A stretch of 64,000 nt of DNA from Myxococcus fulvus (lineage in GTDB: Bacteria > Myxococcota > Myxococcia > Myxococcales > Myxococcaceae), in the NCBI RefSeq assembly GCF_900111765.1, contig NZ_FOIB01000009.1:186001-250000 (forward strand), read 5' to 3'. Of this stretch, positions 2,017-35,984 are shown in pieces. The position numbers and the translations under genes were made by a program. The notes below the pieces were generated by a model, which worked only from the letters and a program-made list of their open reading frames with translations, was not told the DNA's origin and did no database searches. Every line of letters begins with the position of its first letter. Position 1 is the first letter of the stretch.

Positions 2017-2038
2017 GGGAGCTTCCGGAGCATGTGCG

Positions 2039-4516: not shown

Positions 4517-4663
4517 GGCGACCTGACCGGCACTCCCACAGGGATACCCACGGCCCGTGGCCTACCGGAATCCGGGCGCGGCGAAGTCCCGAGCGTAAGC
4601 CCACACGACAGGGGGGTCAAACCCTTGTAGGCACGGCGGAACCGGATAATCCCGGCCCGCGCA

Positions 4664-12445: not shown

Positions 12446-12463
12446 GCCCGCCTTCACGCGGGC
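12446..12463. terminator. Hairpin between convergent genes
   Basis: GCCCGC (12446-12451) and GCGGGC (12458-12463) form a 6-bp stem that spans the stop of the ThiF-like gene. There is no T-run. It may be a bidirectional terminator or a chance GC-rich pairing. Confidence 0.3.
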
Positions 12464-13272: not shown

Positions 13273-13725
13273 GACGCCTCCCCTTTCATCCCCGGGGAGC
13301 GTCGAGATGCGCGTGCGACGTGTCGGCTTCGCGTCTTCCCGGGCCCGTCGATGTGGCCCTCGTCCCCTGCTCCCGGGAGGGGCCGCCGCCCCGGGATGTT
13401 CACCAGTCCGCCTCCCCCGAAGACGGTGTCCGGCGCACGGCACTCGGCACGTCCAACGGCCCCAGTCGTCAGTCCCGCGCCACACCCGTGATGTGCCTGC
13501 TTCAGTCGTGAAGCGGGGTCTTTCCCACCACACCCGCCAGGGCATGTCAGACGGTTGCTTCACAGTGGACACCAGGCGTGAAGTCCAGGGATAGGAGACA
13601 CTCCGCGAGTTTCGTGTGTTCAAACTCTGGCGTGGATTCTGCTCAGCGGGTGACACGGCACGGAGGCGCCAGGGGCACCGACGCGCGGCTCCCTCCGAAC
13701 CCCTCTTCTTCGATTCGAGGTCTCT
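13273..13725. other. Intergenic region between divergent genes
   Basis: 453 bp carrying the promoters of the ThiF-like gene (minus) and the hydrolase gene (plus). GCTTCA-GTCG-TGAAGC (13499-13514) is a perfect hairpin, and CTTCAC/GTGAAG arms recur at 13558-13583 with a 14-bp spacer; the shared half-site suggests a possible operator. No gene is supported here. Confidence 0.4.
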
Positions 13726-15139: not shown

Positions 15140-16936
<1,797 letters not shown>

Positions 16937-18135: not shown

Positions 18136-18210
18136 GGAGCAGAGACCGGACCTGACTCGCTCGCGGGTTCGGGGCATGATGCGCGCACGCAGATGAGGGG
18201 GAGTCCCATC

Positions 18211-18915
18211 TTGACGATGACCACCACCGCGAGCCCTCGCGGCGAGGAACACGAGCTCGCGCTGCTGCTCGGCGGACGCTGTCGGCGTTGCGCCGAGCGG
18301 ATTCCGGGAGGCACCGCCCTGCGCGGCCGCCCCTGCCCTCGTTGCTCGGAGGCCACGCTCCCCAGCCCCGAGGACCGGGAGGTGCTCCACCAGCTCTCCA
18401 CCCAGCGCGCCACGGTGCGCCTGAGCGTCGCGGTGGTGGGCGTGGCGGCCGCGGCCCTCGTGGCCAGCTGGGTGCCGCTGCTCACGTCATTCCTCCTGGT
18501 CGCCGCGCTCGTGTGGCTTCGCGTGACGCTGGTGACGCCCGCGCTCCAGCTCCTCTCGCTCCAGCGCAAGCTCGTCGCACGCTGGACGCTGCGGCTGGCC
18601 GCGGGATGCTTCGTCGCGCTGTCGGTCCTCATGCTGGAGCTCCTGACACTGGTGCCTGGCCTCGGCGCACTGGCGAAGGTGGCGCTGAGCGCGGGACAGG
18701 TCGCCGTGGCGGGGCTCTTCGCGCGTCGCTATCTGGCGTGGCAGACCGGACGCGAAGCCCAGGGGGTGCCCGTCGCCTGGTGGGAGATGGGGCTTCTCGT
18801 AGCGTGGATGCTCCTGCTACTCGCCTTCACCACGGCGTCCGTGCTGCTGGTGGTCTACGTGCTCCAGTCGCTGGGGTTCGTGAAGGAGTTCCTCGTCATG
18901 CCGGTGGGAGGCTGA
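18211..18915 (+). CDS. Membrane protein with N-terminal zinc ribbon (ternary-system cluster)
   Basis: 234 aa. TTG 18211 is preferred because AGGGGGAG lies 7 bases upstream; ATG 18193 and ATG 18217 are alternatives in frame. A zinc ribbon near residues 20-45 uses two CxxC pairs (CRRC and CPRC, 18 residues apart). Four to five hydrophobic helices follow (for example LSVAVVGVAAAALVASWVP and GLLVAWMLLLLAFTTASVLL). It is probably a cytoplasmic-membrane protein with a cytosolic ribbon. It is the first gene of a co-directional operon and lies 3 bp before another membrane zinc-ribbon protein. The family is not recognised. From context it may be the membrane or sensing part of the FtsH/MoxR system. 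Confidence 0.82.
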   Translation: MTMTTTASPRGEEHELALLLGGRCRRCAERIPGGTALRGRPCPRCSEATLPSPEDREVLHQLSTQRATVRLSVAVVGVAAAALVASWVPLLTSFLLVAALVWLRVTLVTPALQLLSLQRKLVARWTLRLAAGCFVALSVLMLELLTLVPGLGALAKVALSAGQVAVAGLFARRYLAWQTGREAQGVPVAWWEMGLLVAWMLLLLAFTTASVLLVVYVLQSLGFVKEFLVMPVGG

Positions 18916-18918
18916 GCC

Positions 18919-19713
18919 ATGCTCACGTACGCCCTCGTCTCGCAGGCCATCGGCCTGAGCGGTGCTTCGGGGACTCGCGCGGGAGGCAGCCTGCTGCTGC
19001 TCGCGCTGGCCGCGCATGCGCAGTACCTCACGCTGCCGCCCGAGCTGACGTGGCTCGCCACGCCGCAGGCGCTCGGGGCCATGGTCGCGCTGCTCGCGTT
19101 CGAGATGTACACGCAGCGCGACAGCGACCTGCGCATGGTGCTCGGCCTCGCGCAGTTCGCGTTGAGCGCGGGCAGCGGCGCCACGGTGGCGCTCGCCTCC
19201 GTGGGCGTGGGCACCGAGGGGCTCCCTCCCTGGGCCGTGGGCGCCGTGGGCGCCTTCGTCGCCGTGTCCACCCTGTCCCTGCGCCAGTGGCTGCACACCC
19301 GCGTGGACCACCTTGAAACCGAGGTCCTGCGTCCGCGGAAGTGGCTCCTGCGCATCGAGGACTGCTTCGGCCTGGGACTCGCGGCGGTCGCCATCCTCTG
19401 GGCCCCACTCGCCTTGGTGCTCGTCCTCCTGTTCACCGCGGCCTGCGCCGTGGCGGGATGGCTCGCGTACCGGCTGGAGGCACGTGGCCGGCGCCCCTGC
19501 CCCGCCGGCTGTGGCGCTCGCATCCGACAGGAGGCCTCTCGCTGTCCGAAGTGTCACGCGGATGTGCCCATCGCCCGCAGGTTGGACCTGCGGCTCGCGG
19601 GCCGGATGCGGGACGCGCTCCAGAGCGCGCTGGGCTCCGGGACTTCCGGTGTTTCCCGCGCGGACCCGAGCGTCCGGCGCGGCGGCGGCAAGCTCCCCTC
19701 CCGTCTGGGGTGA
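18919..19713 (+). CDS. Membrane protein with C-terminal zinc ribbon (ternary-system cluster)
   Basis: 264 aa, starting 3 bp after the previous stop. Six or so hydrophobic segments occupy residues 1-190, with a basic/acidic loop (DHLETEVLRPRKWLLRIED) between them. A zinc ribbon follows near residue 190-220: CPAGC, then CPKC. The architecture mirrors the preceding gene with the ribbon at the opposite end, which suggests a heteromeric membrane complex. The last 40 residues are disordered and basic. It is likely co-transcribed with the genes on either side. No known family is recognised. Confidence 0.82.
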   Translation: MLTYALVSQAIGLSGASGTRAGGSLLLLALAAHAQYLTLPPELTWLATPQALGAMVALLAFEMYTQRDSDLRMVLGLAQFALSAGSGATVALASVGVGTEGLPPWAVGAVGAFVAVSTLSLRQWLHTRVDHLETEVLRPRKWLLRIEDCFGLGLAAVAILWAPLALVLVLLFTAACAVAGWLAYRLEARGRRPCPAGCGARIRQEASRCPKCHADVPIARRLDLRLAGRMRDALQSALGSGTSGVSRADPSVRRGGGKLPSRLG

Positions 19714-19737
19714 TGCGCGGCCCGCGCCGTTCCTGGC

Positions 19738-20364
19738 ATGCTGGGAACCTCCGCCATGTCCTCGAGCCCGGACACGTCTTCAACCGGCCCGGTGCTCCGG
19801 GTCGCCCAGCAGGTTCCTCGCACCGAGGCGGAGGGCCCCGGGCGCCGCTTCGCGCTCTGGGTCCAGGGCTGTCCGCTGCGCTGCCCCGGCTGCTGCAATC
19901 CGGAGATGTTCGCGATGGAGCGCGGCACCGTCGTGACGGTGGAAGCCATGGCGGCCCGGGTGCTCGCGACGCCCGGCATCGAGGGCCTCACCATCCTGGG
20001 CGGAGAGCCCTTCTCCCAAGCGGACGCCGCAGCGGAGCTGTGTGAGCGCGTGCGCGCGGGCGGGCTCAGCACCCTCGTCTTCACCGGCTACACGCTGGCC
20101 GAGCTGAAGGCGCAGGGCCGCCCCGGAGTCGAGCGCCTGCTCGCCTCGCTGGACCTGCTGGTGGATGGGCGCTACGAGAAGGACCAGCCGGAGACGGGCC
20201 GGCGGTGGATCGGCTCTCGCAACCAGGTCATGCACTTCCTCACCCCGCGCTACGCCCCGGAGGACCCGACGTTCACCGCGCCGAACACGGCCGAGGTCCA
20301 CCTCATCGAGGGGCGCATCATCGTCAACGGCTGGCCCGACCTCGCGGACCGACTGCGCCCATGA
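19738..20364 (+). CDS. NrdG-like radical SAM protein (4Fe-4S single-domain activase type)
   Basis: 208 aa; ATG 19756 is an alternative start. The radical SAM cluster motif is C45-x3-C49-x2-C52 in QGCPLRCPGC, preceded by the GPGRRFALWVQGC stretch typical of the anaerobic ribonucleotide reductase activase family. LTILGGEPF is the GGE SAM-binding motif, and LLVDGRYEKDQ near 140 is also characteristic. Activases of this type install a glycyl radical on a partner, but no glycyl-radical enzyme or NrdD is present nearby. Inside this operon the partner is unknown; related stand-alone activases are reported in MoxR/FtsH ternary systems (recalled, not checked). The stop overlaps the next start (ATGA). 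Confidence 0.88.
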   Translation: MLGTSAMSSSPDTSSTGPVLRVAQQVPRTEAEGPGRRFALWVQGCPLRCPGCCNPEMFAMERGTVVTVEAMAARVLATPGIEGLTILGGEPFSQADAAAELCERVRAGGLSTLVFTGYTLAELKAQGRPGVERLLASLDLLVDGRYEKDQPETGRRWIGSRNQVMHFLTPRYAPEDPTFTAPNTAEVHLIEGRIIVNGWPDLADRLRP

Positions 20365-21446
20365 GCCGCGTCTCGCCCTCCGAGCACCGGCTGCTCACGC
20401 TCGCGCGCGCCATCCTGGGCCAGGGCCCCTACATGCCCGTGGAGGACTTGTTCCGGGGCAGCCACGTCTGTCCGCCCCAGCTGGGCCCCGAGGCCCTCCT
20501 GGCGCTGAGAGATTCGCTGTCCAAGGGCACCGTGCTCGCCCTCGCGCGGATGGGCGGGGGTCGCAAGCGCCGTCACCTGCCCTCCACCTCCGGGACGACG
20601 CGGCTCTGGGAGCGGCACCCGCCCCGCCCGCTCCACTTCTCCGCACTCTGCTTCCACACCCTGCGCTGGCTGGTGGAGCAGCCGCTCACCGTCCCCGACC
20701 ACCGCCCCCTGGACGTCGACGCACCTCCGACTCTCGCAGACGAGTTGTTCCTGTACCTGTGCTGCCGGATGCTCGTGGGGACCTCCTGCGCGCCGGCCCT
20801 GGCCAAGGAGCCCCAGTTCCGCCGCTCCGCCCTGTGCCGGCTCGGGTTCCCCGACGTGTTCGCCTCCGTGTCGGCTTCGCTCTCGGCCGACGACTTCGCG
20901 CCGCTGCTCGCCGACGGAGGCTGGCTCCTGGAGGCCGTCCAGGACGAGCTGGCCCTGCGCTGGCGGAAGCTTGAGGAGTCCAAGAGCTGGCGAATCGAGC
21001 CCCGGGAGCTCGTCGAGCTGGGGGCTTCGCAGACGCGGGTGCTGGACGCCTTCTTCGATGCGCTGGACCGCGCGCGCCGAAGAGACCTCGCGGGCTTCCT
21101 GCTGGACGCGCTGCGTCCCCTCGTGGACCAGCCCGCGGCCCGCTGGGTGGCCCACCTGTCACCGCGCGCGCCCCTGGGCGCGAAGGTCGAGGCACGACGT
21201 GGCGCGGGCGCAGGGCTGCGCGCCCTGGCCCGACTGGCGCGGTGGGACCAGGAGCACCGCGCGGTGCGCTTCTTCGACGATGACCACGATGACGCCCAGC
21301 TGCTGCTCTCCGAGTGGGCCTCCTTCGGCGACGCGGGCTTCCGGCTCGCGGCGGACCGGGAGCGAGAGCTGGGCTCGGACCTGATGGTTTCCGCCGAGGT
21401 CCCCGAGGACGGGACCTCTTCATCCTTCACCGGGAGCGCCCCATGA
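20361..21446 (+). CDS. Unknown ternary-system protein
   Basis: 361 aa, start in an ATGA overlap with the radical SAM gene. It is soluble, with no signal peptide or membrane helix. It is mainly helical, with short conserved-looking motifs such as ELFLYLCCRMLVGTSC and a clustered acidic stretch FFDDDHDDAQLLL near residue 305. No catalytic motif is identified. Tight translational coupling on both sides indicates that it works with the FtsH and MoxR components. In published comparative work such accessory genes are given only placeholder domain names. I would treat it as a system-specific adaptor of unknown function. Confidence 0.8.
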   Translation: MSRVSPSEHRLLTLARAILGQGPYMPVEDLFRGSHVCPPQLGPEALLALRDSLSKGTVLALARMGGGRKRRHLPSTSGTTRLWERHPPRPLHFSALCFHTLRWLVEQPLTVPDHRPLDVDAPPTLADELFLYLCCRMLVGTSCAPALAKEPQFRRSALCRLGFPDVFASVSASLSADDFAPLLADGGWLLEAVQDELALRWRKLEESKSWRIEPRELVELGASQTRVLDAFFDALDRARRRDLAGFLLDALRPLVDQPAARWVAHLSPRAPLGAKVEARRGAGAGLRALARLARWDQEHRAVRFFDDDHDDAQLLLSEWASFGDAGFRLAADRERELGSDLMVSAEVPEDGTSSSFTGSAP

Positions 21447-22009
21447 GCCGCGCCTATCGCATCTCCGTCTCCGAGTCCCTCAACCGCATCGTCCACGCCG
21501 ACGACGGCGTGTGCTCCAAGCTGGAGCTGTTGCCGCTGTTGTCGCGCGAGGAGACGGCGGGCCTGCTCGCCGCGGACCTCGCCGCGCGAGGCTTCGTCCA
21601 GGAGGGCGACGTGGCGGTGCGCACGGAGGCGGATGGCGTGCGCGTGGCCGTGGACGTCACCACCGGCGAGGTCAGCGTCACGCTCGCGGCCCAGCAGGAG
21701 GTGGAGCTGACGGCCGTGGGCGAGGTCCGCACGAATGCCCCCGCCCCCACCGAGGCCACGCAGAAGCTCGCCCGGGAGAAGGCGCGCGCGAAGCTGGAGG
21801 ACCGCGCCCAGGACGCCACGGAGGCGCTGCGCGAGGAGGTCACTCGCAAGCTGGAGGGTCGCCTGCGCGACCTCAAGGCGGAGCTGGACGCCATCTCCAA
21901 CAAGGTGACGGCGGAGGCGCTCAAGGTGCGCGCGTCGCAGCTGGGCACCGTGGAGGAGATCCACGAGGACGCGGCGACGGGCTCGCTCACCATCAAGGTC
22001 CGCGTATGA
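21443..22009 (+). CDS. Small ternary-system protein with coiled coil
   Basis: 188 aa, ATGA overlap with the preceding gene and GGGAG 7 bases upstream. The N-terminal half (1-90) is an alpha/beta region with repeated beta strands (VRVAVDVTTGEVSVTL). Residues 100-165 are a highly charged helix with heptad character (EKARAKLEDRAQDATEALR), then a short beta hairpin ends the protein (GSLTIKVRV). This recalls the small beta-rich proteins found beside Ycf46-type AAA ATPases, but I cannot assign a family. It probably binds or regulates the adjacent FtsH-type protein, with which it shares a 4-base overlap. Confidence 0.8.
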   Translation: MSRAYRISVSESLNRIVHADDGVCSKLELLPLLSREETAGLLAADLAARGFVQEGDVAVRTEADGVRVAVDVTTGEVSVTLAAQQEVELTAVGEVRTNAPAPTEATQKLAREKARAKLEDRAQDATEALREEVTRKLEGRLRDLKAELDAISNKVTAEALKVRASQLGTVEEIHEDAATGSLTIKVRV

Positions 22010-24123
22010 GCCAGCGCATCCCCGAGGAGTCGCTCCCCACGGAGCTGACGCCGTTCCAGGCGGTGGAGGCCGCGTACCCCGCGGAGCTGGAGCGCACGCG
22101 CGAGGCGCTCTTGCGCGGCCTGCCCGTCATGGTGGAGGCGGACAAGGAGCTGACGCCCTACTTCTACAAGTGCCTGAGAGACAGGCTGAAGAAGGACGGC
22201 AAGCAGTTCCTCTACCTGGACGGACGCGCCGCCGCGGAGCCGCCGCCCGGCATGCCCGCGCCCAGCATGATGGCCACGCTCATCGGCCAGCTGCGCGACG
22301 CGGTGCGCGGTGCGGTGCGAGAGCGCATCGTCGTGCTGCCGCACCTCGACCTGCTCACCACCAGCAGCGGCGGGCTCACCTCCGAGGCGCGCGAGGTGAT
22401 TCCGCTCCTCTACGAGAACCCTGAGATGCTCTGGGTCGGCTTCAAGGACCCGTCCTTCCCGCTGCCTCGGGTCATCGAGAACCTGTTCCCCCACAAGGAG
22501 ACCATCCTCGGCGTGAGCCGCGAGCGGCTGCGCCACCTGGTCACCCAGCGCGAGTGCCGCAAGTTCGGCCGGGGCCTCCAGCCGTACGTGCTCTACAAGC
22601 ACGTGTCCGGAGTGAACGCCGTCCGGCTGCGCCGGCTGCTCGGCGCCATCACCGGCGAGGACTACCCGAGCGACGCGCGGCCCGCGTACGCGCAGCTCCG
22701 CTCGGCCACGCTGAGCGGCTCGTTGAACGTGCCGGATCTGGACCTGCGCGCGGACATCGGCGGCTACTCGCAGGTGAAGGACCGCCTCCAGCGCGAAATC
22801 CTCGACGTGCTCGCGCACAAGGACACGCTGTCGGACCCGGAGGCGGTGAAGCGCGTCGAGGGGCTGCTGCCGCGCGGGATGATCTTCTGGGGCCCTCCCG
22901 GCACGGGCAAGACGCTCTTCGCCAAGGCCATGGCGTCCTCGCTGGGCGCGGCGGTGCTCGTGGTGAGCGGCCCGGAGCTCAAGAGCCGCTGGGTTGGCGA
23001 GAGCGAGGAGAACCTCCGGCAGATCTTCGTCCGGGCCCGACAGGCGGCGCCGAGCATCATCATCTTCGACGAGCTGGACTCGTTCGCCTCCGCGCGAGGG
23101 ACATATACGGGCTCCGGCGTGGAGCACTCGATGGTGAACCAGCTGCTCACGGAGATGGACGGCTTCCGCAAGGAGGAGCTCGTCTTCGTGGTGGGCACCA
23201 CCAACTTCGTGGAGTCGCTGGACCCCGCGCTCTTGCGGCCGGGGCGCTTCGAGTTCCAGCTGTGCATCCCCTACCCCAACAACACGGACCGCCGGGCCAT
23301 CCTGTCCATCTACAACGAGAAGCTGGCCCTGGGCATGACGGAGCGCGCGCTGGACTACGCGGTGAAGCGCACCGGAGACCGCGTCGAGGGCACGGGCACG
23401 CGCTTCTCCGGCGACCACATCCAGGCGCTGTGCCGCGCGCTCGCGCGACGCCGACTGCGTGAAGGCGCCCAGACGCCCACCGAGCCCGTGGACGTCGAGC
23501 GCGCCCTCACCGACTACCTGGACCGGCCCGCGCTCACGCCCACCGAGGAGCGCGTCGTCGCCACGCACGAGGCCGGCCACGCGGTGTGCGCGCTGTTCTG
23601 TCCCAGCGCCCCCGCCATCGACCGCATCAGCATCCGCGGGGACCTGGCGGGCACGCTCGGCTTCGTGCAGTACGCGGACCCCGCGCATCGCCACGTCGTC
23701 ACCCGGGGGCAGCTGCTCGACAGCATCTGCATGCTCTTCGGCGGACGCGAGGCGGAGGCGCTGCTGCTCGAGGACCTGTCCATCGGCAGCGCGCATGATT
23801 TGGAGCGCGCCACGGAGATCGCCCGCGAGCTGGTGGAGGAGCTGGGCATGGGCGGCGACGGACTGCCCGTGCGCCGCTTCGACGCGCCGGGGAGGGACGC
23901 GGACCGACACGCGCTCTCCGACGCGACGCGCGGCACGCTGGAGGCGGCCATCCTGGAGGTGCTCGAGGTGCAGCGGGCCCGGGCGCGCGACATCCTGCGC
24001 CGCGAGAAGCCCCGCCTCGTCGCGCTGCGGGATTTGCTCCTGGAGCGCAAGGTGCTGGACCGCGAGGCATTCGTCCACCTGGCGCCCGAGGCGGCGCCGC
24101 AGAAGGAGCCCGCCCATGGCTAG
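22006..24123 (+). CDS. Soluble FtsH-type AAA+ metalloprotease
   Basis: 705 aa, ATGA start overlap. Residues 1-230 form an N-terminal domain with no membrane helix, unlike ordinary FtsH; IVVLPHLDLL followed by PEMLWVGFKD looks like a degenerate AAA-like fold. The active AAA+ module has Walker A GPPGTGKT at 296-303, Walker B IIIFDELD, the pore-region SRWVGESEEN, and the second region of homology TTNFVESLDPALLRPGRFE. The peptidase domain has the zinc motif HEAGH at 521-525 and a third ligand Asp598 in GSAHDLERAT. All catalytic residues are present. It should unfold and degrade proteins in the cytosol. It is the central protease of the operon. Confidence 0.93.
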   Translation: MSQRIPEESLPTELTPFQAVEAAYPAELERTREALLRGLPVMVEADKELTPYFYKCLRDRLKKDGKQFLYLDGRAAAEPPPGMPAPSMMATLIGQLRDAVRGAVRERIVVLPHLDLLTTSSGGLTSEAREVIPLLYENPEMLWVGFKDPSFPLPRVIENLFPHKETILGVSRERLRHLVTQRECRKFGRGLQPYVLYKHVSGVNAVRLRRLLGAITGEDYPSDARPAYAQLRSATLSGSLNVPDLDLRADIGGYSQVKDRLQREILDVLAHKDTLSDPEAVKRVEGLLPRGMIFWGPPGTGKTLFAKAMASSLGAAVLVVSGPELKSRWVGESEENLRQIFVRARQAAPSIIIFDELDSFASARGTYTGSGVEHSMVNQLLTEMDGFRKEELVFVVGTTNFVESLDPALLRPGRFEFQLCIPYPNNTDRRAILSIYNEKLALGMTERALDYAVKRTGDRVEGTGTRFSGDHIQALCRALARRRLREGAQTPTEPVDVERALTDYLDRPALTPTEERVVATHEAGHAVCALFCPSAPAIDRISIRGDLAGTLGFVQYADPAHRHVVTRGQLLDSICMLFGGREAEALLLEDLSIGSAHDLERATEIARELVEELGMGGDGLPVRRFDAPGRDADRHALSDATRGTLEAAILEVLEVQRARARDILRREKPRLVALRDLLLERKVLDREAFVHLAPEAAPQKEPAHG

Positions 24124-24382
24124 TCTCATCCTCCGCCTGCTCGTGAATCCCCAGACGGGCCGCAAGGACGTCGTCATCCAGTACGAGAGCGACTCCGACG
24201 CGCTGCCCATGGAGCACGAGGACGAGCACCGCCGCCTCGTGGACCAGCTCATCGCCGGTGGCGCGTTGAAGGCGTCGGAGCTGGGCCAGGTCATCGTCCA
24301 GCGCGACACGCCGTCCGGCCAGGCCTCCAATCCCGAGTCCACGTCCGACGGCAACGCCGAGAAGGTGAGCCAGAAGGCCTGA
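24116..24382 (+). CDS. 88-residue beta-hairpin protein of the ternary system
   Basis: The start overlaps the FtsH stop by 8 bases and has AAGGAG 7 bases upstream; the stop overlaps the next ATG by one base (TGATG). The first 25 residues are two predicted beta strands (ASLILRLLVNPQTG and KDVVIQYESD), then an acidic helix (EHEDEHRRLVDQLIAGG) and a polar disordered tail. The size and hairpin start recall the tiny partners of Ycf46-type ATPases. Its role is probably substrate delivery or regulation of the protease, by inference from gene order only. Confidence 0.78.
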   Translation: MASLILRLLVNPQTGRKDVVIQYESDSDALPMEHEDEHRRLVDQLIAGGALKASELGQVIVQRDTPSGQASNPESTSDGNAEKVSQKA

Positions 24383-27300
24383 TGTCCACGCTCGTCTTTC
24401 CCACCCGGGAAGCGCTCCACCTCGCGCTGACCTCCCGACTCGTCCCTCCCGAAGTCCAGGCCGCGCCGGCCCATCACCACGCCAGCGCCGAGGGACCGCT
24501 CTACGTCACGCCCCACGCGCCGCTGACGAAGGGCGCGCTCGCGGAGCTGGCCACGTTCGGCGTCCGCGTCGACGCGAAGGCCCCACGCGGTGAGTCCTCC
24601 GTGCGGTGCTGGGCGGAGCTGCTGCCCACCCACCGCGTCCCGCTGGACGGCGTGCTCCCCGGCACGGTGATGTTCCTGCCCACCGACGCGGACGCGCTGC
24701 TCGCGCTCGCCGGAGAGCTGCTGCGCCTGGGCTGCGACCGACAGGAGGTCTGCTTCGCGAAGGGCGAGGAGGGCTCGCGAGCGCTGCTGCGCGCGGTGGC
24801 GCCTCCGTACTTCACGCTCACGGGCGCCATCGACCGCGCGGGGGGGCTGCGCGCCTTCGTCCCCGCCGTCCCGGGTCAGACGTCCGTCTGGGTGGAGCTG
24901 GGACATGTGCATCCGCTGGCGCGAACACTCCAGCCCGCCGCGGGCAACGTGCTGCTCATCCCGGGCGAGGGCGCGTGGCTGACGGCCGCGGACGGTCCCT
25001 GGCTGGACCTGTACCAGCTCACCGACTTGCGGCTCCCGGAGCCCGCGCGCGCCTGGGAGCCCCTGCCCGCGCCCGGCCGGCTGTCCGTCCCGCTGCGCCT
25101 CACCCGCGCCGCGCGCACCGAGCCCGCGAGCCTCTGGGTGCTGCGTGAGAACGCCGTGGCCCAGGTGGAGTCGCTCGTCCACACGCTGCCCGAGCCCGTG
25201 CTCGCGCAGCTGCGCTTCGCGGTGACGGGTCCACCGGACGCGCCCTGCATCATCCTGCGCGCGCGCGCCGGACGTGAGCGGCCTCCGGAGCTGGGCCTGT
25301 CCGCCATGGCCTATGCGCCGCTGCCGCAGGTCGCGGAGCTGTACCTGCCGTGCGACGGACTGCTGGAGCCGCCCGTGCGCAAGGAGCGGTTGCGCGCGCT
25401 GCTCGTCCCCACGCCGGAGACGGTGACGTGGCTGCACCCCACGGGGGACGGAGGCTTCCGCGCGGAGCGCATCTCCGAGAAGGCCTTCCAGCCGCTCGAG
25501 TCCTGGGTGGACTACGTGGTGGACGCGAGCGCCGTCGCGCTGGAGCCCTGGATGAAGGGCGCGACGTTCGACTTCGGCGCCATCGAGCTCGCCGACGGTG
25601 AGTGGATTCCCGGCACCTCGCGCGCCCCGTCCGCGGAGAAGAAGCCCAAGGACGCGCAGTCCACGAAGACAGAGCGTCGCGCCCATGACACCGCCGAGCC
25701 CGAGCCGGTGGCGGAGCCCTCGCGCAAGGCCTCGAAGAAGACGGCCACGAAGGCCCCGAGCGCGCCGCTCGTCCCCCTCGCGCCCGAGCGACAGGACGCG
25801 GCGGCCGAGGCGCTCGCCCGCGCGGAGAGGGACTTCCTCGCGCTGGACGTCCCGGCCGATGCCCCCGAGCGACAGGCGCTGTGGGTGCGCATGGCGGAGC
25901 TGCAGGTGCAGCTCGGACGCGCTCGCGAGGCGACCCTGTGTTGGACGTGCGCGCTGTGGAGCGCCACGGGCGATGAGGCCACCGAGCTGGCCGAGCGCTG
26001 GGCCCGCGCCGAGACCCGCAACGGCCAGGCGCCCGAGCAGTTGCTGACCCGGGACACGCCGTCGGAGGACGACGTCCGGAGCCTCGCGAGCGCGCTCGTG
26101 CACGCGGCGCGTGCTTCAGGAGGGGCGACGTTCAGCGACGTCCCGACGCTCCAGCGCTGGCTCGACAAGCATGACACCGCGCTCGACGTGCGCACGCTGT
26201 GGCTTTCCCGCGCGGCGTTGGACAAGCTCGCGGGGGGAGACCCCCTGAGCCTCGCGAAGGCGGGAGACCGGGTGCAGGAGATGCTGCGGCGCGGCCTCTC
26301 CCTGTCGCGCGACGTGCCGCTCTTCCTGCGCGGAGGCACGGACGCGGCGCTGCTGCCCCGGCTGGCGACGCACCTGACGACGCTCCTGGACCGCTTCGAG
26401 CGCACCACGCGCCGACGCTCCTCGGTGGAAGCGCCCACCGCGCTCACCCAGGCCTATGTCCGCCTCGTCTTCGCCTGCGGGCTCGCGCGGGTGGGCCAGC
26501 CGGAGCACGCGCGCACGCTGGTGGAGGCCGCCACGGCGGCGCTCTCCAAGTCGGACCCCATCCACGGCTTCCTCGTCCGGGCCTATGGCGCGCGCGTGAC
26601 GCAGGCCCTGGAGGGCGAGCCCCTGGAGACGCCGCTCCCCGCGGACATCGCCGCGGAGCTCAACGCCCTGGCCACCTTCCAGCGGTACAAGGTCGACCGG
26701 CTGCGACAGGGCTCGGGACTGCTGGAGCCCAGCGAGCGGCTGGATCCGGCGCGGGCCTTCGGACGAGGGACGCGCGACCTGCGTGGCGAGGAGTTCGCCG
26801 CGCTGCGAGACATCCGCGACCCGGAGGTCGTCCACCACGAGGTGCACCAGCTCGTCCAGCGTGCCACCGGGGCCAAGCTGAACGCGGCCGAGCGACAGCG
26901 GCTCATCGGCGGGCTGCTGGAGACGCTGCCCCGGCTCCCGCTGGCGCGCGCGCTGCCGTTGATGGACTCGCTCGTGGCCGCGGTGGACACGCTGCCGGGC
27001 GAGGTGCAGGCGCGGCTGCTCGGTGACGCGCTCGCGCTGGCAGCGCTCTTCGGGCGGGTGGACCGCGCCACCACCTTCGCGGGGCGACTGCGCACCGTGC
27101 TGTCGGGCCTGCCGCCCGACTCCCACGCGTGGAGCGCGGGCATCCTGGAAGCGAGCCTGCGTGGCCTGCGCCGGGTGGGCCTGACGCGCGAGGCGGGTGA
27201 CCTGGTGGAGGCGACGCGCGGCCTGCTGACGCGGCCGAAGACGCCGGTGGCGGCACGTCTCGGCGTCGCGTCCGGCATGGCCTTCGTCGGCCGTGTGCGG

Positions 27301-27648
27301 GAGGCGCTGCCCGTGTTCGACGCGGCGTTCGAGGCCCTCGACGCGCTCAAGGGCACGCTGCCGGAGCGCCTGGCGCTGATGAGGAGCCTCACGGGGGCGC
27401 TGTCCCATGCGCCCGCGGACCTGGCGCTGTCGGGCCTGGCGCGCCTGTCCGAGGTGCTGCCCATGGTGACGGACAGCTACAACACCAACAGCCACTTCTG
27501 CCTCTCGGTGGTGGAGCTGGCGGACATGCTGGTGCTGGGACACGTGGAAGTGGCGCGAGGCTCGGGTGAGCGCGCGCGCGGTTGGTTGGATGAGGATGAG
27601 TTCCTGGTGCGACGACGCATCCATCAGGAGTTGGAGGAGCGTCTATGA
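24382..27648 (+). CDS. 1088-aa ternary-system protein with beta-rich N-terminus and helical repeats
   Basis: No signal peptide or membrane segment. Residues 1-410 are beta-rich (GTVMFLPTDADALLALAGELLRLG; WVELGHVHPLAR; then WVDYVVDASAVALEPWMKG) and look like the leading domain of proteins paired with MoxR ATPases. A Lys/Pro/Ala-rich linker (about 415-470) separates this from about 600 residues of helical repeats resembling tetratricopeptide or similar solenoids (GLARVGQPEHARTLVEAAT, GMAFVGRVREALPVFDAAF). It may be a scaffold or sensor that presents substrates. Gene order (after the protease, 4-base overlap with MoxR) argues for a core role. I cannot name the family firmly. Confidence 0.82.
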   Translation: MSTLVFPTREALHLALTSRLVPPEVQAAPAHHHASAEGPLYVTPHAPLTKGALAELATFGVRVDAKAPRGESSVRCWAELLPTHRVPLDGVLPGTVMFLPTDADALLALAGELLRLGCDRQEVCFAKGEEGSRALLRAVAPPYFTLTGAIDRAGGLRAFVPAVPGQTSVWVELGHVHPLARTLQPAAGNVLLIPGEGAWLTAADGPWLDLYQLTDLRLPEPARAWEPLPAPGRLSVPLRLTRAARTEPASLWVLRENAVAQVESLVHTLPEPVLAQLRFAVTGPPDAPCIILRARAGRERPPELGLSAMAYAPLPQVAELYLPCDGLLEPPVRKERLRALLVPTPETVTWLHPTGDGGFRAERISEKAFQPLESWVDYVVDASAVALEPWMKGATFDFGAIELADGEWIPGTSRAPSAEKKPKDAQSTKTERRAHDTAEPEPVAEPSRKASKKTATKAPSAPLVPLAPERQDAAAEALARAERDFLALDVPADAPERQALWVRMAELQVQLGRAREATLCWTCALWSATGDEATELAERWARAETRNGQAPEQLLTRDTPSEDDVRSLASALVHAARASGGATFSDVPTLQRWLDKHDTALDVRTLWLSRAALDKLAGGDPLSLAKAGDRVQEMLRRGLSLSRDVPLFLRGGTDAALLPRLATHLTTLLDRFERTTRRRSSVEAPTALTQAYVRLVFACGLARVGQPEHARTLVEAATAALSKSDPIHGFLVRAYGARVTQALEGEPLETPLPADIAAELNALATFQRYKVDRLRQGSGLLEPSERLDPARAFGRGTRDLRGEEFAALRDIRDPEVVHHEVHQLVQRATGAKLNAAERQRLIGGLLETLPRLPLARALPLMDSLVAAVDTLPGEVQARLLGDALALAALFGRVDRATTFAGRLRTVLSGLPPDSHAWSAGILEASLRGLRRVGLTREAGDLVEATRGLLTRPKTPVAARLGVASGMAFVGRVREALPVFDAAFEALDALKGTLPERLALMRSLTGALSHAPADLALSGLARLSEVLPMVTDSYNTNSHFCLSVVELADMLVLGHVEVARGSGERARGWLDEDEFLVRRRIHQELEERL

Positions 27649-28691
27649 GCAGTGTTCCCCGGCGTGAGGAGCCCGCCGCCGACCCCATCTCCGCGCTGAC
27701 GTTCGATGCGCTGTCGCGCGAGGCCCAGGGGCTGAGAGACCGACTCAACCGCTTCCGTCAGGCGCTGGGCCGGCACTTCGTGGGCAAGCAGACCCTGGTG
27801 GATTTGATGACGGTGGCGGCGGTGGCCCAGGAGCCGCTGCTGCTCGTGGGCCCTCCGGGCACGGCCAAGTCGGACCTGGTGCTCAAGTTCCGCGAGGCGC
27901 TGCGCATCCCCTCCGAGGACTACTTCGAGTACCTGCTGACGCGCTTCACCGAGCCGTCGGAGGTGCTGGGCCCCATCGACATCAACCTGCTGCGCCAGGG
28001 GCGCTACATCCGCCGCGAGGGCGGCAAGCTGCCCACCGCCCGGCTCGTCTTCCTGGACGAGGTCTTCAAGGCGAGCTCCGCCATCCTCAACGCGCTGCTC
28101 ACGGTCATCAACGAGCGCAAGTTCTACCAGGACGGCGCGCCGCAGCCGGTGCGCCTCAAGGTGCTCTTCGCCGCCACCAACGAGCTGCCCGAGCACGCGG
28201 AGCTGGGCGCGCTCAAGGACCGCTTCTGCCTCAAGGCCGCGTGCCGGCCGGTGCAGGACCGCTACTTCCTGGAGCTGCTCGACTCGGGCCTGGAGTCGCA
28301 GACGCACCGGGAGCTGAACCAGAAGCCGTGGGCGGAGGGGCACGCCACGCTGGAGGACGTGCTCAAGGCGCACCGCTACCTGACGCTGATAATGGGCCGC
28401 AAGGAGGCCGGGCCGGACGGCCGCGAGCTGCGAGATCGCGACCTGTTCTTCCGCGACGAGCTGCTGCGGGAGTTCCGCCGCGTGGTGCAGACGCTGACGC
28501 GCGAGGACGGCGTGTTCATCAGCGACCGCAAGCTGGTGAAGCTCTACCGGCTCTTGCGCACGCGCGCGTGGATCTTCCACGGCGGCGCAGTGGAGCGGCA
28601 GGACCTCCAGCTCCTGTCGTACCTGGGAGAGACGCGGGAGGAGATCGACCTGCTCGAGGAGAAGGTGCCCCGGCTGCTCGGCCTGACGTGA
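27645..28691 (+). CDS. MoxR-family AAA+ ATPase
   Basis: 348 aa, ATGA overlap with the preceding gene. Walker A is GPPGTAKS at 69-76; LVFLDEVFKASSAILNALL is Walker B with the typical MoxR helix-2 insert region; TVINERKFYQDG and FAATNELPE (sensor 1) follow. The C-terminal lid is helical. MoxR ATPases act as chaperones for VWA-domain partners and resemble RavA. The VWA-like partner is probably the gene at 30417, with one opposite-strand gene in between. It is the last gene of the tight operon. A GC-rich hairpin follows. Confidence 0.93.
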   Translation: MSSVPRREEPAADPISALTFDALSREAQGLRDRLNRFRQALGRHFVGKQTLVDLMTVAAVAQEPLLLVGPPGTAKSDLVLKFREALRIPSEDYFEYLLTRFTEPSEVLGPIDINLLRQGRYIRREGGKLPTARLVFLDEVFKASSAILNALLTVINERKFYQDGAPQPVRLKVLFAATNELPEHAELGALKDRFCLKAACRPVQDRYFLELLDSGLESQTHRELNQKPWAEGHATLEDVLKAHRYLTLIMGRKEAGPDGRELRDRDLFFRDELLREFRRVVQTLTREDGVFISDRKLVKLYRLLRTRAWIFHGGAVERQDLQLLSYLGETREEIDLLEEKVPRLLGLT

Positions 28692-28699
28692 GCCCGGAA

Positions 28700-28728
28700 G
28701 GAGCGGAAGGCGCCCTGCCCTCCGCTCC
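28700..28728. terminator. Hairpin between convergent genes
   Basis: GGAGCGGA (28700-28707) and TCCGCTCC (28721-28728) form an 8-bp perfect stem with a 13-base loop, in the 48-bp gap between the MoxR gene and the convergent lipoprotein gene. No T-run on either strand, so termination is inferred. Confidence 0.45.
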
Positions 28729-28739
28729 CGTCCCTTCGG

Positions 28740-30212
28740 CTACGGCGTGCAGCTCACGTTCGAGGGCATGCTCCAGAGCTGGTGGTAGCCCGTGTCATCC
28801 CTCGCGCCGAAGTAGATGCGATTGCCCACCCGGCCGAACGCGGTCGCCAGGTGCGTCCGCGACGGGCTCGTGGTGATTTCGGAGGAGGTCGCGTCGGTGC
28901 CGTAGGACACCCACGGCGCCGCAAAGCTGTCCGTGCCGCCCGCGGTGAACACCACCCCGCCGTTGTCCGCGGCGATGAGCGGAGACCAGTACTCGTCGGA
29001 GGTGCTCAGCGCCGCGGGGACCCGCCGCGTCGTCGCCGCCGTCCCCTGCGTCACCCACAGCCACACCCTGCGCGGCGCGGGACCCGACGTCCCGATGGCG
29101 ACGGAGAAGTAGAGCTTGTCTCCTGAGCGCACGACGCCCTGGACGTAGGTCCCGGCATCCGGGTCGGTCGACCACGGGTTCTCCAACTGGGTGATGTTCG
29201 TCTTCCCGCCCCCCGCCAGTGACACGCTGGAGAGCGTCATGATGGGCAGGTAGGCGCTGTCCACCAGGTACACCGAGCCGCCCAGCGAGCCGAGCATCAG
29301 CATGCGCTTGCCGAAGGTCTCCAGGCGCACCGTGCCCGCGGCCGTCCCGTCCGTCTTCCACACCTCCGTGCTGCCGCCATCCAGCAGGGTGAACAACCCC
29401 ACGGCGCCATCCTGCGTGGTGCCCACGTCCATCACGGGGACCTGTCCGGCATCCAGCTTCTTGACGAAGAGTGTCCCGCCCGCGGTGCCATCCGTGCGCC
29501 ACAGCGAAGTGCCGTCCGTCGGGTTGGACATGAAGAAGAAGTGCGCGCTCGTGGTCCGCACGAAGTGCTCCGACAGCGTGCTCAGCACGCCCAGGTTCAC
29601 CTCCATCCGCGTGCCGGCCTCCGTGCCATCCGTGCGCCACAGCTCCACCTGCGTCCGGGGCGGCGTCAGCACCTGCCGCGTGCGGAAGAACGACGCGCTG
29701 TTGCCCCACACGGAGACCTGCGACATCGCCGTGCCCTCCGGCCCGGGCGTCACGTCCTTCAGCAGTCGCGTGCCAACCTCCGTGCCGTCCGACACCCACG
29801 GCTCGCGGCCCGACTCCGGCGTGTAGACGGTGAACAGCAGCTTGTCGCCGAGCGGCGCCCGGGTGGACAACGCGCGCTCGGGCCACATCGCGGAGAAGGC
29901 GCGGACCTGGACGGTGCTGCCCTCGGTGCCCTGCGTGCGCCACAGCACGGAGGCGCCGTCGGGGTAGTTCACGGTGAAGTACGTCGTGCCCTGCACGCCC
30001 AGGAAGCCGAAGGGCGACAGCCCCGCGAACGGCGGAGGCTCGGGCGTCCCGGGTGGAATGACGACCTTCACGCGCTGCGCGCCACCCGTCGGGCACGACG
30101 GTGCCAGCAGCGGCGCCTCCGCCGTGTTCACGGGACTCTCCGCCCTCGCCTCCGGTCCTCCGCAGCCCAGGGCCCCCAGCAACATCACCGCCCAGCCAGA
30201 CTTCGCGCGCAT
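28740..30212 (-). CDS. ELWxxDGT-repeat lipoprotein
   Basis: 490 aa. The ATG at 30212 gives a lipoprotein signal (VMLLGALGCGG) and has GAGGAGG upstream. At least five repeats of the ELWRTDGTEAGT type are present (LWRTQGTEGST, ELWRTDGTEAGT, SLWRTDGTAGGT, EVWKTDGTAAGT, LWVTQGTAAT), each preceded by a VYFSV/VYLVD-like strand, so a beta-propeller-like fold is expected. Such proteins are common outer-surface lipoproteins in myxobacteria; function is unknown. It is inserted on the opposite strand between the MoxR operon and the VWA-like gene, so it may be an intruder rather than a part of the system. Confidence 0.87.
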   Translation of the reverse strand: MRAKSGWAVMLLGALGCGGPEARAESPVNTAEAPLLAPSCPTGGAQRVKVVIPPGTPEPPPFAGLSPFGFLGVQGTTYFTVNYPDGASVLWRTQGTEGSTVQVRAFSAMWPERALSTRAPLGDKLLFTVYTPESGREPWVSDGTEVGTRLLKDVTPGPEGTAMSQVSVWGNSASFFRTRQVLTPPRTQVELWRTDGTEAGTRMEVNLGVLSTLSEHFVRTTSAHFFFMSNPTDGTSLWRTDGTAGGTLFVKKLDAGQVPVMDVGTTQDGAVGLFTLLDGGSTEVWKTDGTAAGTVRLETFGKRMLMLGSLGGSVYLVDSAYLPIMTLSSVSLAGGGKTNITQLENPWSTDPDAGTYVQGVVRSGDKLYFSVAIGTSGPAPRRVWLWVTQGTAATTRRVPAALSTSDEYWSPLIAADNGGVVFTAGGTDSFAAPWVSYGTDATSSEITTSPSRTHLATAFGRVGNRIYFGARDDTGYHQLWSMPSNVSCTP

Positions 30213-30416
30213 GTGGCCTCCTCTCCCGTGAGGGAGCAAGGAAGCGAGGGTGGGAACCGACCCTGGGCTGGACAACTGCCCCGAAGTCGCAGGGGCCTGT
30301 CCGCGTCGAGACAGGAACCGCTCCTCCGGTCCCCTGCCGAAACCAAGGTGCCTCGGCGCCGCGCACCGACACGCCCCTGCATCCGCCCCCAGCGAGAAGT
30401 GATACAGGGTGGACGC

Positions 30417-31907
30417 ATGGGAGTCCCCGAGCCGCGAGCCCCCCAGGACCTGGAACGCTGGTTGTGCGCGGGGCTCTGCCTCGCACGGCAGGAGGGACTC
30501 GACGCGGAGGCGCTCGCCACGAGCATCCCCGGGTTGAGGGCCATGCTCGAGGAGGCCCCCACGCTCCCACCGCCCGCGCTCATCTCCGATCTGGGGCGGC
30601 TCGTCTCAGGCCAGCCTCCCGCACCGTCCCTCCCCATCCCGGACACCCTGCCCCGCCTGCGCGACGCCGTGCGGGCCTACGACGACCACGTCCTCGCGCG
30701 CCTGGCCGCCGAGCCCTCCCTGGAGGCCGTGTCCGCCGCGCTGGCCCGCGTGCCGCAGGCCCTGCGTCCCAAGGGCCTGGCCTTCCTCGTGGGCCGCGTG
30801 CTCACGCGCATGGGCTTCACCTCGGGCACGCCCGTCAGCCCCGCGCTGGGACGGCGCATCCTCGAGAAGCCACCCGGTGAACTGTTGCAATCGGGATACA
30901 GCGCCCTGCGTGAAAAGGACGCCGCGCTCGAGTCGCTCGCCCAGGGCTACGAGGCGCTGGCCACCGGAGCGCGCCGCGCCAGCGCCCTGTTCGGTGACGC
31001 CGAGGTCTTCACGCTGGAGAACCTGGAGCACCTGAAGGGCAAGGCGCAGCGCCTGGCGTTGGAGCAGGCCGTGGAGGCCGCCGAGTCGCTGTCGCGCACG
31101 CTGCCGCCGCGGCTGCGCGCGCGCGCCGTCTCGCACGGCCCCGCCCCCACCGCGCTGGAGGACGAGGCCGCTTTCCCCCAGGGCGGCTTCGCGTCGGTCT
31201 CCAACGTGGGCAGCCTGGAGAACCTGGTCACCTCCGAGCTCGTCTACATGGAGGACGAGCCCACGCTCGACTTGTTCGACGTGCGCTACGTCGAGGGCGA
31301 GCTGCTCTACTACACGCGCGACGAGAGCCTCGCGGTGCGTCGCCGCCGGGTGCTCGTGTTCCTCTTGCCCGTGAGCCTCGCGGACGCGCGCGTGAAGGAC
31401 AGCGGCGTGAGCTGGCAGCGCGCCGTGCTGGCCCTGGGGCTGGTGCTGTGCCTGGTGCGCCGGCTCTCCGTGTGGCTCGGAGACCAGGACCTGCGCTTCC
31501 AGGTGGTCTTCCCCTGGGAGGGACAGGGCCCTCACCCGCTCGAGGCCGAGCGGGGCTTGTGCGAGCTGCTCCTGCGCGAGTGGCGCGCCCGCGGCACGGT
31601 GGAGATTCTCACGCCGCGAGACAATGAGCAGGTGTTGGAGCAGGTGCGTGTCGACGCGAAGCGGGCGCGCGTGGACGTGCTGTGGCTCGACGCGGTCCGT
31701 CAGTCGCCGCTCGACACACGCGGGCTGCCCTCGCACGTGAGCGTGCACCGGGTGGACCTGAGCGGGCCGAGCCCTCGGGTGCAGACGTCACGACCGGGTG
31801 TCCCCGCGCAGGGAATCCCGGAAGATGGGCAGGAAGGGCGCGTGCCCGAGACGCCATGGGAAGCCTGGATGGGCGCGACGCTTGAGCTTGCGCGAGGGCT
31901 TCTCTAG
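30417..31907 (+). CDS. Probable VWA-like protein of the MoxR ternary system (degenerate metal site)
   Basis: 496 aa; ATG 30417 with weak AGGGTGGA upstream. The N-terminal 290 residues are helical. The region from about 280 reads LDLFDVRYVEGELLYYTRDE, like the segment preceding the VWA fold in MoxR partners. The core then begins with a beta strand RRRVLVFLLPVSLADARV, followed by the helix AVLALGLVLCLVRRL, then LRFQVVFPW, and later TVEILTP and ARVDVLWLD, which fits the VWA order. The DxSxS metal motif is missing (LPVSLADAR), so it would not bind metal in the usual way. It is separated from MoxR by one opposite-strand gene and is otherwise the expected partner. The assignment is an inference. 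Confidence 0.72.
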   Translation: MGVPEPRAPQDLERWLCAGLCLARQEGLDAEALATSIPGLRAMLEEAPTLPPPALISDLGRLVSGQPPAPSLPIPDTLPRLRDAVRAYDDHVLARLAAEPSLEAVSAALARVPQALRPKGLAFLVGRVLTRMGFTSGTPVSPALGRRILEKPPGELLQSGYSALREKDAALESLAQGYEALATGARRASALFGDAEVFTLENLEHLKGKAQRLALEQAVEAAESLSRTLPPRLRARAVSHGPAPTALEDEAAFPQGGFASVSNVGSLENLVTSELVYMEDEPTLDLFDVRYVEGELLYYTRDESLAVRRRRVLVFLLPVSLADARVKDSGVSWQRAVLALGLVLCLVRRLSVWLGDQDLRFQVVFPWEGQGPHPLEAERGLCELLLREWRARGTVEILTPRDNEQVLEQVRVDAKRARVDVLWLDAVRQSPLDTRGLPSHVSVHRVDLSGPSPRVQTSRPGVPAQGIPEDGQEGRVPETPWEAWMGATLELARGLL

Positions 31908-33316: not shown

Positions 33317-34471
33317 ATGTCCGCGTTGCCCGGCTTCATCGTCATCGGCAACGCGGAGAACCGGCGCGTCTCGCTGTTCCAGGACGCGCTGGAGCGTCAG
33401 GGCCTGCCACCCGCGAAGGTGGTGCCCTGGCGGGAGCTGCTGGAGTCCCCTGCCCGCCTCGCCGAGTTCCCCGACACGGACGCGCTCGTCCGCATCGACG
33501 CCGCGGGTGAGAGCTGGGAGGTGGAGAAGGGCTTGTTGAAGCGGGGATACGAGGACGCGCTCGCGCACGGCGGACAGGTGCTCGCCCCGGACGAAGTGGA
33601 CGCGCTCGTCGAGGACCACGGGCGCATCCTCGCGCCTCGACAGGGACACCTCGGCCTCCTCCGCGTCCTCTCGGAGCTGGAGGCCGTGTTCCGCGAGCGC
33701 CCGTCCTGGAGGGTGCTCCAGTCGCCCGCGAGCATCGGAGACTTGTTCGACAAGCGTGTCACCTCGCGCCGGTACGCCGCGCTGGGCGTGCCGGTGCCGG
33801 AGCCGCTGGACGGGGTGACGGACGTGGCGTCGCTGCGCGAGCGCATGGACGAGGAGGGCTGGCGCGAGGTGTTCGTGAAGGTGTCCTGCGGCTCGTCGGC
33901 GTCGTGTCTGGGCATCTTCCGGAGACTGCGTGGCCACGAGTCGCTGATCACCACCGTCGAGCAGTCGCCGAGGGGTTGGTTCAACACGCTCAAGGTGCGC
34001 CGCATCCGCGAGCCGGAGCCGCTGGAGCGGGTGCTCGACTTCCTGTTGCGCGAGGGCTCGCAGGTGGAGCGCTCGATTCCGAAGGCGCGGCTGGGCGGAG
34101 ACCTCTTCGACTGCCGGGTGCTGGCGGTGCGCGGCGAGCCCGCGTTCATCGTGGTGCGCCAGAGCCGGCTTCCCATCACCAACCTGCACCTGGGCGGCTG
34201 GCGCGGCGAGCTGGAGGAGCTGGAGGCGGCGGTGCCCCGGAACGAATGGGACGCCGCGATGGAGAGCTGCCGCCGCGTGGCGCGCGCCCATGACTGCCTG
34301 CACGTCGGCATCGACCTGATGTTCGAGGAGTACTTCACCGGGCACCGCGTGCTGGAGGCGAATGCCTTCGGTGACCTGCTGCCCGGCCTGAAGCGCGACG
34401 GCCTCACCGTGTACGAGTGGGAGATTCGCGAGGCCCTGCGGTCCGCGGGCTTCGACGTGCCCGCCGCCTGA
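33317..34471 (+). CDS. ATP-grasp-type protein, STM4014 family
   Basis: 384 aa; ATG 33317 lies 7 bp after the previous stop, although the frame is open further back. The N-terminus is a small alpha/beta pre-ATP-grasp domain (GFIVIGNAENRRVSLFQDAL). The ATP-grasp core includes SIGDLFDKRVTSRRYAALGV, VFVKVSCGSSASC (nucleotide lysine strand), FDCRVLAVRGEPAFIVVRQS and the metal-binding end HVGIDLMFEEYFTGHRVLEANAFGDL split over two strands (D, E and N). It is cytosolic. STM4014 in Salmonella sits with two radical SAM proteins, a sulfatase-like hydrolase and STM4015; the function of that set is unknown. A peptide or metabolite ligase step is plausible. Confidence 0.87.
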   Translation: MSALPGFIVIGNAENRRVSLFQDALERQGLPPAKVVPWRELLESPARLAEFPDTDALVRIDAAGESWEVEKGLLKRGYEDALAHGGQVLAPDEVDALVEDHGRILAPRQGHLGLLRVLSELEAVFRERPSWRVLQSPASIGDLFDKRVTSRRYAALGVPVPEPLDGVTDVASLRERMDEEGWREVFVKVSCGSSASCLGIFRRLRGHESLITTVEQSPRGWFNTLKVRRIREPEPLERVLDFLLREGSQVERSIPKARLGGDLFDCRVLAVRGEPAFIVVRQSRLPITNLHLGGWRGELEELEAAVPRNEWDAAMESCRRVARAHDCLHVGIDLMFEEYFTGHRVLEANAFGDLLPGLKRDGLTVYEWEIREALRSAGFDVPAA

Positions 34472-35774: not shown

Positions 35775-35787
35775 TAGGGTCCGCCTC

Positions 35788-35968
35788 GCCATGCGGCGGC
35801 TCGGAAACCCAGCGCGTAGACGGTCCGTGGTGACACGGCCTTCTGCTTCTCCGGGGTACCCCCGGGGAGTCGTCATGAGGAACACACTCCCACGCGAGGC
35901 CGGTATCGCGGCGAGCCGCGACTCTGGCCACGCCAGACGGGACAGGTGGGCCCGCGCCGCCGCATGGC
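35788..35968 (+). ncRNA. Candidate retron msr-msd
   Basis: A perfect 13-bp inverted repeat bounds the region: GCCATGCGGCGGC (35788-35800) and GCCGCCGCATGGC (35956-35968); pairing continues inward by CGG after one mismatch. This matches the a1/a2 repeats of retrons. After a1 comes CCCAGCG, with a possible branch G at 35812. A hairpin with a GTGA loop lies at 35822-35840 (GG-CCGTG/CACGG-CC), and another at 35849-35869. A possible msd stem is closed by CCCAC (35889-35893) with GTGGG (35946-35950) and contains TCTGGC-CAC-GCCAGA and GCGGC-GA-GCCGC hairpins. The a2 end lies 16 bp before the RT start. Confidence 0.7.
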
Positions 35969-35984
35969 ACCCGGAGGTCCAGAC

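Follow-up and report, generated by a model that had tools for sequence, protein, structure and literature searches.

FtsH ternary systems were published as a class in 2020 by Kaur, Burroughs, Iyer and Aravind, who proposed for such systems a conflict role, directed against invaders or leading to cell suicide (PMC7159879). As described in that paper, the simple type comprises a radical SAM protein, FtsH, a MoxR ATPase with the motif GxxxTAKS, a divergent vWA protein with a helical N-terminus and NEFF1, and its FtsH carries an inactive N-terminal AAA domain and an active second AAA domain; the complex type is described with a beta-propeller vWA protein and with Ubl-conjugation genes in the operon (PMC7159879). 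The class is known from computation alone and carries the label of a conflict system. Here we describe an operon in a 64,000-nucleotide stretch of the 10.8 Mb genome of Myxococcus fulvus (contig NZ_FOIB01000009.1, positions 186,001 to 250,000; hereafter the window, from whose first nucleotide coordinates are counted). Among FtsH ternary systems it belongs, almost certainly, to the simple type; the architecture of its vWA protein and the presence of a radical SAM gene fit the simpler of the two published types. The operon adds one more case to a class that was already known.

Comparison with described systems

A Pfam scan of the operon products placed the core genes in families titled 'FtsH ternary system ...' or 'MoxR-vWA ... 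ternary', in agreement with a preliminary description of this DNA, which had named it an FtsH-MoxR-vWA ternary system. That description knew of no member dissected experimentally, and we likewise found no experimental study of FtsH ternary systems among the results of literature searches, judged on titles, term counts and the starts of abstracts. With the simple type, the window shares the GxxxTAKS-bearing MoxR, the divergent vWA protein with helical N-terminal region, FtsH and the adjacent radical SAM gene, all matching the corresponding Pfam families. The window FtsH also has the active AAA domain of that type (PF00004), with Walker motifs in 68/68 homologues. The NEFF1 effector was not identified in the window, where no NEFF1 model was searched, and the accessory and inserted genes of the window are lineage-specific. 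FtsH, MoxR and a divergent vWA protein are also common to the complex type, but the vWA protein of the window has the helical N-terminal region instead of a beta-propeller, and the Pfam scan of the ten operon genes gave no match to JAB, E1, RING or E2.

Two better-known relatives lie further away. Canonical FtsH has an N-terminal membrane segment. The window FtsH shares its AAA and M41 catalytic residues, but reaches only 255.8 bits with the canonical membrane FtsH model (cut-off 600), carries an extra N-terminal region and shows no N-terminal hydrophobic segment above the threshold used. The RavA-ViaA type likewise pairs its ATPase with a vWA partner, and the RavA model matches the window MoxR at 145 bits. 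The window MoxR stays short of the RavA cut-off of 681, has a variant P-loop, and is accompanied by FtsH and a radical SAM protein.

Organisation of the operon

The genes of the operon and its nearest neighbours are as follows. Counts over 21 refer to the loci of the genus set (Myxococcus with Pyxidicoccus) that were surveyed for flanks, some of which end too soon to show every flanking gene; other fractions refer to homologues.

18193 to 18915, + strand: accessory membrane protein, non-core, with hydrophobic segments and a CxxC...CxxC stretch seen by eye; no Pfam match; 6/21 loci
18919 to 19713, + strand: accessory DUF4126 membrane protein, non-core, with a C-terminal zinc-ribbon-like stretch; PF13548 59 bits, Zn_Ribbon_1 17.1 bits (below the cut-off of 25); 6/21 loci
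19738 to 20364, + strand: NrdG-like radical SAM protein, core; Fer4_12 and Radical_SAM; NrdG model 95.7 bits (below the cut-off of 126.1); CxxxCxxC in 66/66
20361 to 21446, + strand: fvmX6, 361 amino acids; PF20004 204 bits
21443 to 22009, + strand: fvmX5, 188 amino acids; PF20003 182 bits; model with a predicted local distance difference test (pLDDT) of 89
22006 to 24123, + strand: soluble FtsH with an N-terminal region of about 250 amino acids, AAA domain and M41 protease; PF00004, PF01434; catalytic residues in 68/68
24116 to 24382, + strand: fvmX3-analog, 88 amino acids, with EHExxH (64/65); PF20002 103 bits
24382 to 27648, + strand: fvmX7, 1088 amino acids; PF20005 237 bits over residues 1-381
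27645 to 28691, + strand: MoxR ATPase with GxxxTAKS P-loop (39/39); PF20030 bpMoxR 205 bits
28740 to 30275, - strand: ELWxxDGT-repeat protein, an insert outside the system; TIGR04534; also in loci L065 and L098
30417 to 31907, + strand: divergent vWA protein (ivWA) with helical N-terminal region; PF19997 124 bits, PF19996 56 bits
31951 to 33309, + strand: neighbour of unproven role (dn1), a WGR + TIGR02996 + LRR protein resembling STM4015; WGR and LRR matches; STM4015 205.8 bits (below the cut-off of 275); 19/21 loci
33317 to 34471, + strand: neighbour of unproven role (dn2), STM4014-family protein; NF038074 377 bits (cut-off 175); 15/21 loci

Nine + strand genes (18193-28691) form a tight unit, as had been proposed, with overlaps at most junctions, and the divergent vWA gene stands tenth on the same strand. 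The reading frames agree with the base composition at each codon position (codon-position GC), exact start codons being predicted only, and the lengths of X6, X5, X3-analog and X7 are those given earlier. Four junctions are ATGA overlaps: radical SAM/X6 (20361-20364), X6/X5 (21443-21446), X5/FtsH (22006-22009) and X7/MoxR (27645-27648). FtsH and X3-analog overlap by 8 nt (24116-24123), X3-analog and X7 by 1 nt (at 24382), and the first three genes are separated by gaps of 3 nt and then 24 nt. The break between MoxR and vWA is made by the minus-strand ELWxxDGT-repeat gene, which beyond the window occurs in one of the 21 genus loci (L065) and in L098. Of the 20 genus loci in which MoxR and vWA are both visible, 11 have them 35-74 nt apart.

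The two membrane genes at the start of the unit are accessories. They had been described as zinc-ribbon membrane proteins and counted with the rest; both are present in only 6/21 genus loci, so they are not core members. As for the ribbons, the first was recognised by eye without a Pfam match and the second stays below the Pfam cut-off.

Conservation of FtsH, MoxR and vWA

The protease appears to be catalytically intact. Walker A, Walker B, RPGRF, HExGH and a downstream Asp, presumably the third zinc ligand, are all retained in the 68 FtsH homologues. Elsewhere in the genome, two M41 genes match far more strongly, at 243.6 and 226.4 bits; the operon FtsH reaches 110.8 bits. The MoxR P-loop has the form GxxxTAKS in every one of the 39 homologues and GxxxxGK[ST] in none (0/39). 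DxSxS was found, anywhere in the protein, in 10/40 vWA homologues, and is lost in the window protein as judged by eye.

Distribution and gene order

Three markers, X6, X5 and ivWA, were followed through 27 genomes of the genus set, 145 genomes of the order and 14 controls. Each gave a single match in 27/27 genus genomes and none in the controls (0/14). Across the order, X6 was found in 48/145 genomes, X5 in 49/145 and ivWA in 47/145. All 48 X6-positive genomes carry X5; G049 has X5 without X6, and G054 and G136 (79% and 87% complete) have X5 without ivWA. The positive genomes are confined to one family, in 11 of 46 genera. An X5 scan led to 62 named loci in Myxococcota, Planctomycetota, one metagenome-assembled genome of Gammaproteobacteria and one of Bacteroidales, single contigs of this kind being possibly misbinned.

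Much of the gene order is shared with the planctomycete loci. Among the named loci that extend far enough to reveal the following gene, X5 is followed by FtsH in 30/30 Myxococcota and 20/22 other loci (50/52 overall), and FtsH by X3-analog in 25/26 and 16/18 (41/44 overall). The corresponding values, Myxococcota first and others second, are 17/18 and 23/27 for radical SAM-X6, 15/26 and 27/29 for X6-X5, 11/21 and 15/15 for X3-analog-X7, 8/8 and 3/5 for X7-MoxR, and 7/7 and 1/3 for MoxR-vWA. In Myxococcota, most of the misses come from non-Myxococcus relatives with an interrupted or split block. The genes recur as a cluster in both phyla; a scattered occurrence, never clustered, had been named beforehand as the outcome that would speak against the system. 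Within Myxococcus, the system behaves like a fixed cellular system more than a mobile island.

One record, L101, is titled Comamonas sp. KCTC 72670; it holds a Myxococcus-like cluster that groups within Myxococcus in the tree, and is probably mislabelled.

The radical SAM protein and the X proteins

The CxxxCxxC motif is found in all 66 radical SAM homologues. The protein resembles NrdG, yet its score misses the NrdG cut-off, and NrdD and Gly_radical are both absent from the 27 genus genomes (0/27), the NrdD search being positive in 6/14 controls; a role as ribonucleotide reductase activase is therefore unlikely. A search of the genome for a second gene of its kind (E <= 0.001) gave none. A whole-genome search covered 12 genomes, ten in which the radical SAM gene was lacking or out of view beside X5 or X6 and two positive controls (L128 and L144). 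The gene was found in 11 of them, also where it is not adjacent, the miss being the L147 genome and the L126 match coming in two pieces; in two of the ten (L199 and L205) an X6 match adjoins it. We accordingly rejected the idea that it is an optional part.

Residues were also compared between loci with and without an adjoining radical SAM gene. Among X5, X6, FtsH, X3-analog and ivWA, the sole standout is Lys185 of X5; 8 columns stood out in X7 and 21 in MoxR, where one side of the comparison consisted of just two loci. Lys185 was not retained as a radical SAM-linked residue, since the X5 tails follow clades, with L144 as the exception.

In X3-analog, the stretch DALPxEHExxH is invariant or nearly so in an alignment of 31 sequences, and the EHExxH within it may be a metal site. 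A small metalloprotease was considered for this protein on the strength of the motif and set aside; the model has low confidence (pLDDT 64) and no significant structure or sequence match was obtained.

Mean identity to the window, computed over 19 genus loci, is 96% for MoxR, 91% for FtsH, 84% for X3-analog, 81% for radical SAM, 79% for X5, 76% for vWA, 70% for X7 and 66% for X6. The flanking genes up2 and up3, present in 16/21 and 13/21 genus loci, reach 87% and 70% (13 loci each). The block as a whole is not unusually fast-evolving. Genes lying in the gaps between core genes appear mutually unrelated when their sequence starts are compared by eye, with no domain search, and a common effector set in these gaps was rejected on that ground.

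Possible function of the system

The reading that we favour, at about even odds, is that soluble FtsH works as a regulated protease in the cytosol, gated by MoxR and vWA. It is preferred because the catalytic residues are kept, the genes are linked and inheritance is fixed in the genus. The soluble FtsH hexamer would unfold and cut selected proteins, as its conserved residues suggest. By comparison with other MoxR-vWA pairs, MoxR and the divergent vWA protein may be paired chaperones whose task is to load, release or remodel the FtsH complex. X5, X3-analog, X6 and X7, from their linkage, could be subunits or adaptors that recognise the substrate or restrain the assembly, and the radical SAM enzyme might set the switch by modifying one subunit or a substrate.

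Several observations weigh against such a protease. The analysis shows membership, gene order, residue conservation and distribution, and the mechanistic steps are inferred throughout; the triggered proteolysis machine of the preliminary description is plausible on its intact protease residues, with every step conjectural. Confirmation of the inactive N-terminal AAA domain was not obtained: the FtsH residues before 250 have no Pfam match, and hhalign gives them a probability of 0.56% against the active domain. For X5, no fold relatives were obtained with Foldseek at E <= 0.001, although the model is confident, and its best VIA-align Z of 8.1 falls in the range of common arrangements; sequence searches for X5 relatives found none either. 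The structure search with the low-confidence X3-analog model gave no significant match. Within the block, X6 and X7 change fastest (mean identity in the genus 66% and 70%), which would suit adaptors or conflict components alike. Finally, two planctomycete loci hold X5 homologues without adjoining FtsH (L125, 4692-6356; L136, 9986-10573).

Alternatively, the system may serve conflict, against invaders or in cell suicide: it would be kept in check until it detects an invader, at which point an effector or a modified peptide would be deployed through MoxR-vWA and FtsH. Myxococcus is multicellular, which fits this proposal, as do the rapid change of X6 and X7 and a retron-type reverse transcriptase about 4 kb beyond the block. 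In a table of Kaur et al., 63 of the 79 organisms with FtsH systems are multicellular (PMC7159879). The single-copy markers in 27/27 genus genomes speak against it, together with the lack of a common effector among the gap genes, judged by eye, and a PADLOC scan that returned weak or generic AAA and radical SAM matches only. The conflict reading is weakened by these findings, not refuted, and we hold it to be rather improbable, at roughly one half the weight of the gated protease.

Somewhat less probable again is enzyme maturation, in which a client enzyme would be given a cofactor or a modified residue, or have one repaired, by MoxR-vWA and FtsH together with the radical SAM enzyme. Other MoxR-vWA pairs mature metalloenzymes. 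A radical SAM protein retained in 11/12 genomes, yet with neither NrdD nor Gly_radical as partner, would be explained, and so would the possible metal site in X3-analog; no client-enzyme gene, however, is constant within the block, and the retained M41 residues suggest degradation. That unrelated genes were packed together by chance in a gene-dense genome hardly needs to be entertained: the block is indeed interrupted or split in several relatives, but its order is repeated across phyla and the genome sets of its markers nearly coincide. In Myxococcus, the markers are fixed and single-copy, the protease residues are kept and the radical SAM protein has no partner in the two glycyl-radical families searched. 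Both the function and the conflict label are therefore testable in a laboratory Myxococcus, which is tractable and non-pathogenic.

A possible relation to the tandem-AAA module

The module of tandem-AAA, DUF1257 (Ycf35) and DUF2997 proteins offers a speculative comparison. Parts of it occur in cyanobacteria and plastids, and we take its AAA protein to be Ycf46-like. The block of FtsH, X5 and X3-analog with the radical SAM gene might be a protease-bearing sister of this module, which we consider doubtful. If it were true, a single radical SAM subfamily would tune two kinds of switchable AAA machine, and work in Myxococcus would shed light on conserved plastid genes. The shared trait is the succession of an AAA protein, an alpha-beta protein and a small protein; the module differs in that no M41 domain was present in the example scanned. 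Its Pfam names were checked on single examples. The order tandem-AAA, DUF1257, DUF2997 was found in 17/17 fetched Myxococcota loci, some with space for one gene between the first two, and a Synechocystis cluster is given as DUF2997-ycf35-fed7 in PMC4284462. A text search of PMC7159879 for 'M41', DUF1257, ycf46, ycf35, DUF2997 and STM4014 gave zero matches.

With X5 as the hhalign query, one DUF1257 alignment ranks first at 5.4%, X3-analog follows at 3.6% and the other DUF1257 alignment is third at 2.1%; with DUF1257 as the query, X5 reaches 10.2%. Column shuffles attained the observed X5/DUF1257 scores in 1/149 and 0/149 cases. PF06868 (DUF1257) gave no Pfam match on X5. Two further equivalences found no profile support and were dropped: X3-analog with DUF2997, where hhalign gave probabilities of 0.18% and 0.45%, and the N-terminal region of FtsH with its counterpart in the tandem-AAA protein.

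DUF1257 occurs in 18/195 genomes of the phylum. The family with the FtsH system contributes none of these, and the genomes of the other loci were negative as well (0/27); no genome with both systems was found. Radical SAM genes with similar motifs lie near 4/17 DUF1257 loci. This was not accepted as proof of kinship, since three of the four cases come from one genus and the fourth lies about 5 kb off. The radical SAM tree, midpoint-rooted and with one distant row, does not bear on subfamily membership.

Neighbouring features in the window

The names STM4015 and STM4014 appear in no paper on this system found by literature search. Members of the dn1 and dn2 families were also seen in two planctomycete loci: in L125, the gene after X5 encodes a TIGR02996-like protein matching dn1 of the window, and in L144 genes of these families stand in the order dn1-dn2-dn1 (1621-4999) near radical SAM-X6-X5.

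The reverse transcriptase (35775-37319) is of retron type, with the St85 family as best NCBIfam match (167 bits, below the cut-off of 235). The 171 nt upstream of it fold more stably than shuffled sequences (z -2.96; 1/200 equally stable), and an Rfam scan of the region gave no match; the locus is possibly a retron. On the other side, about 4.5 kb upstream and outside the operon, a ThiF-domain (E1-like) protein is encoded on the - strand (12454-13656), its NCBIfam matches all being below cut-offs. A sigma-54 activator with a PilZ domain (15140-16936, - strand) flanks the cluster in 16/21 genus loci.

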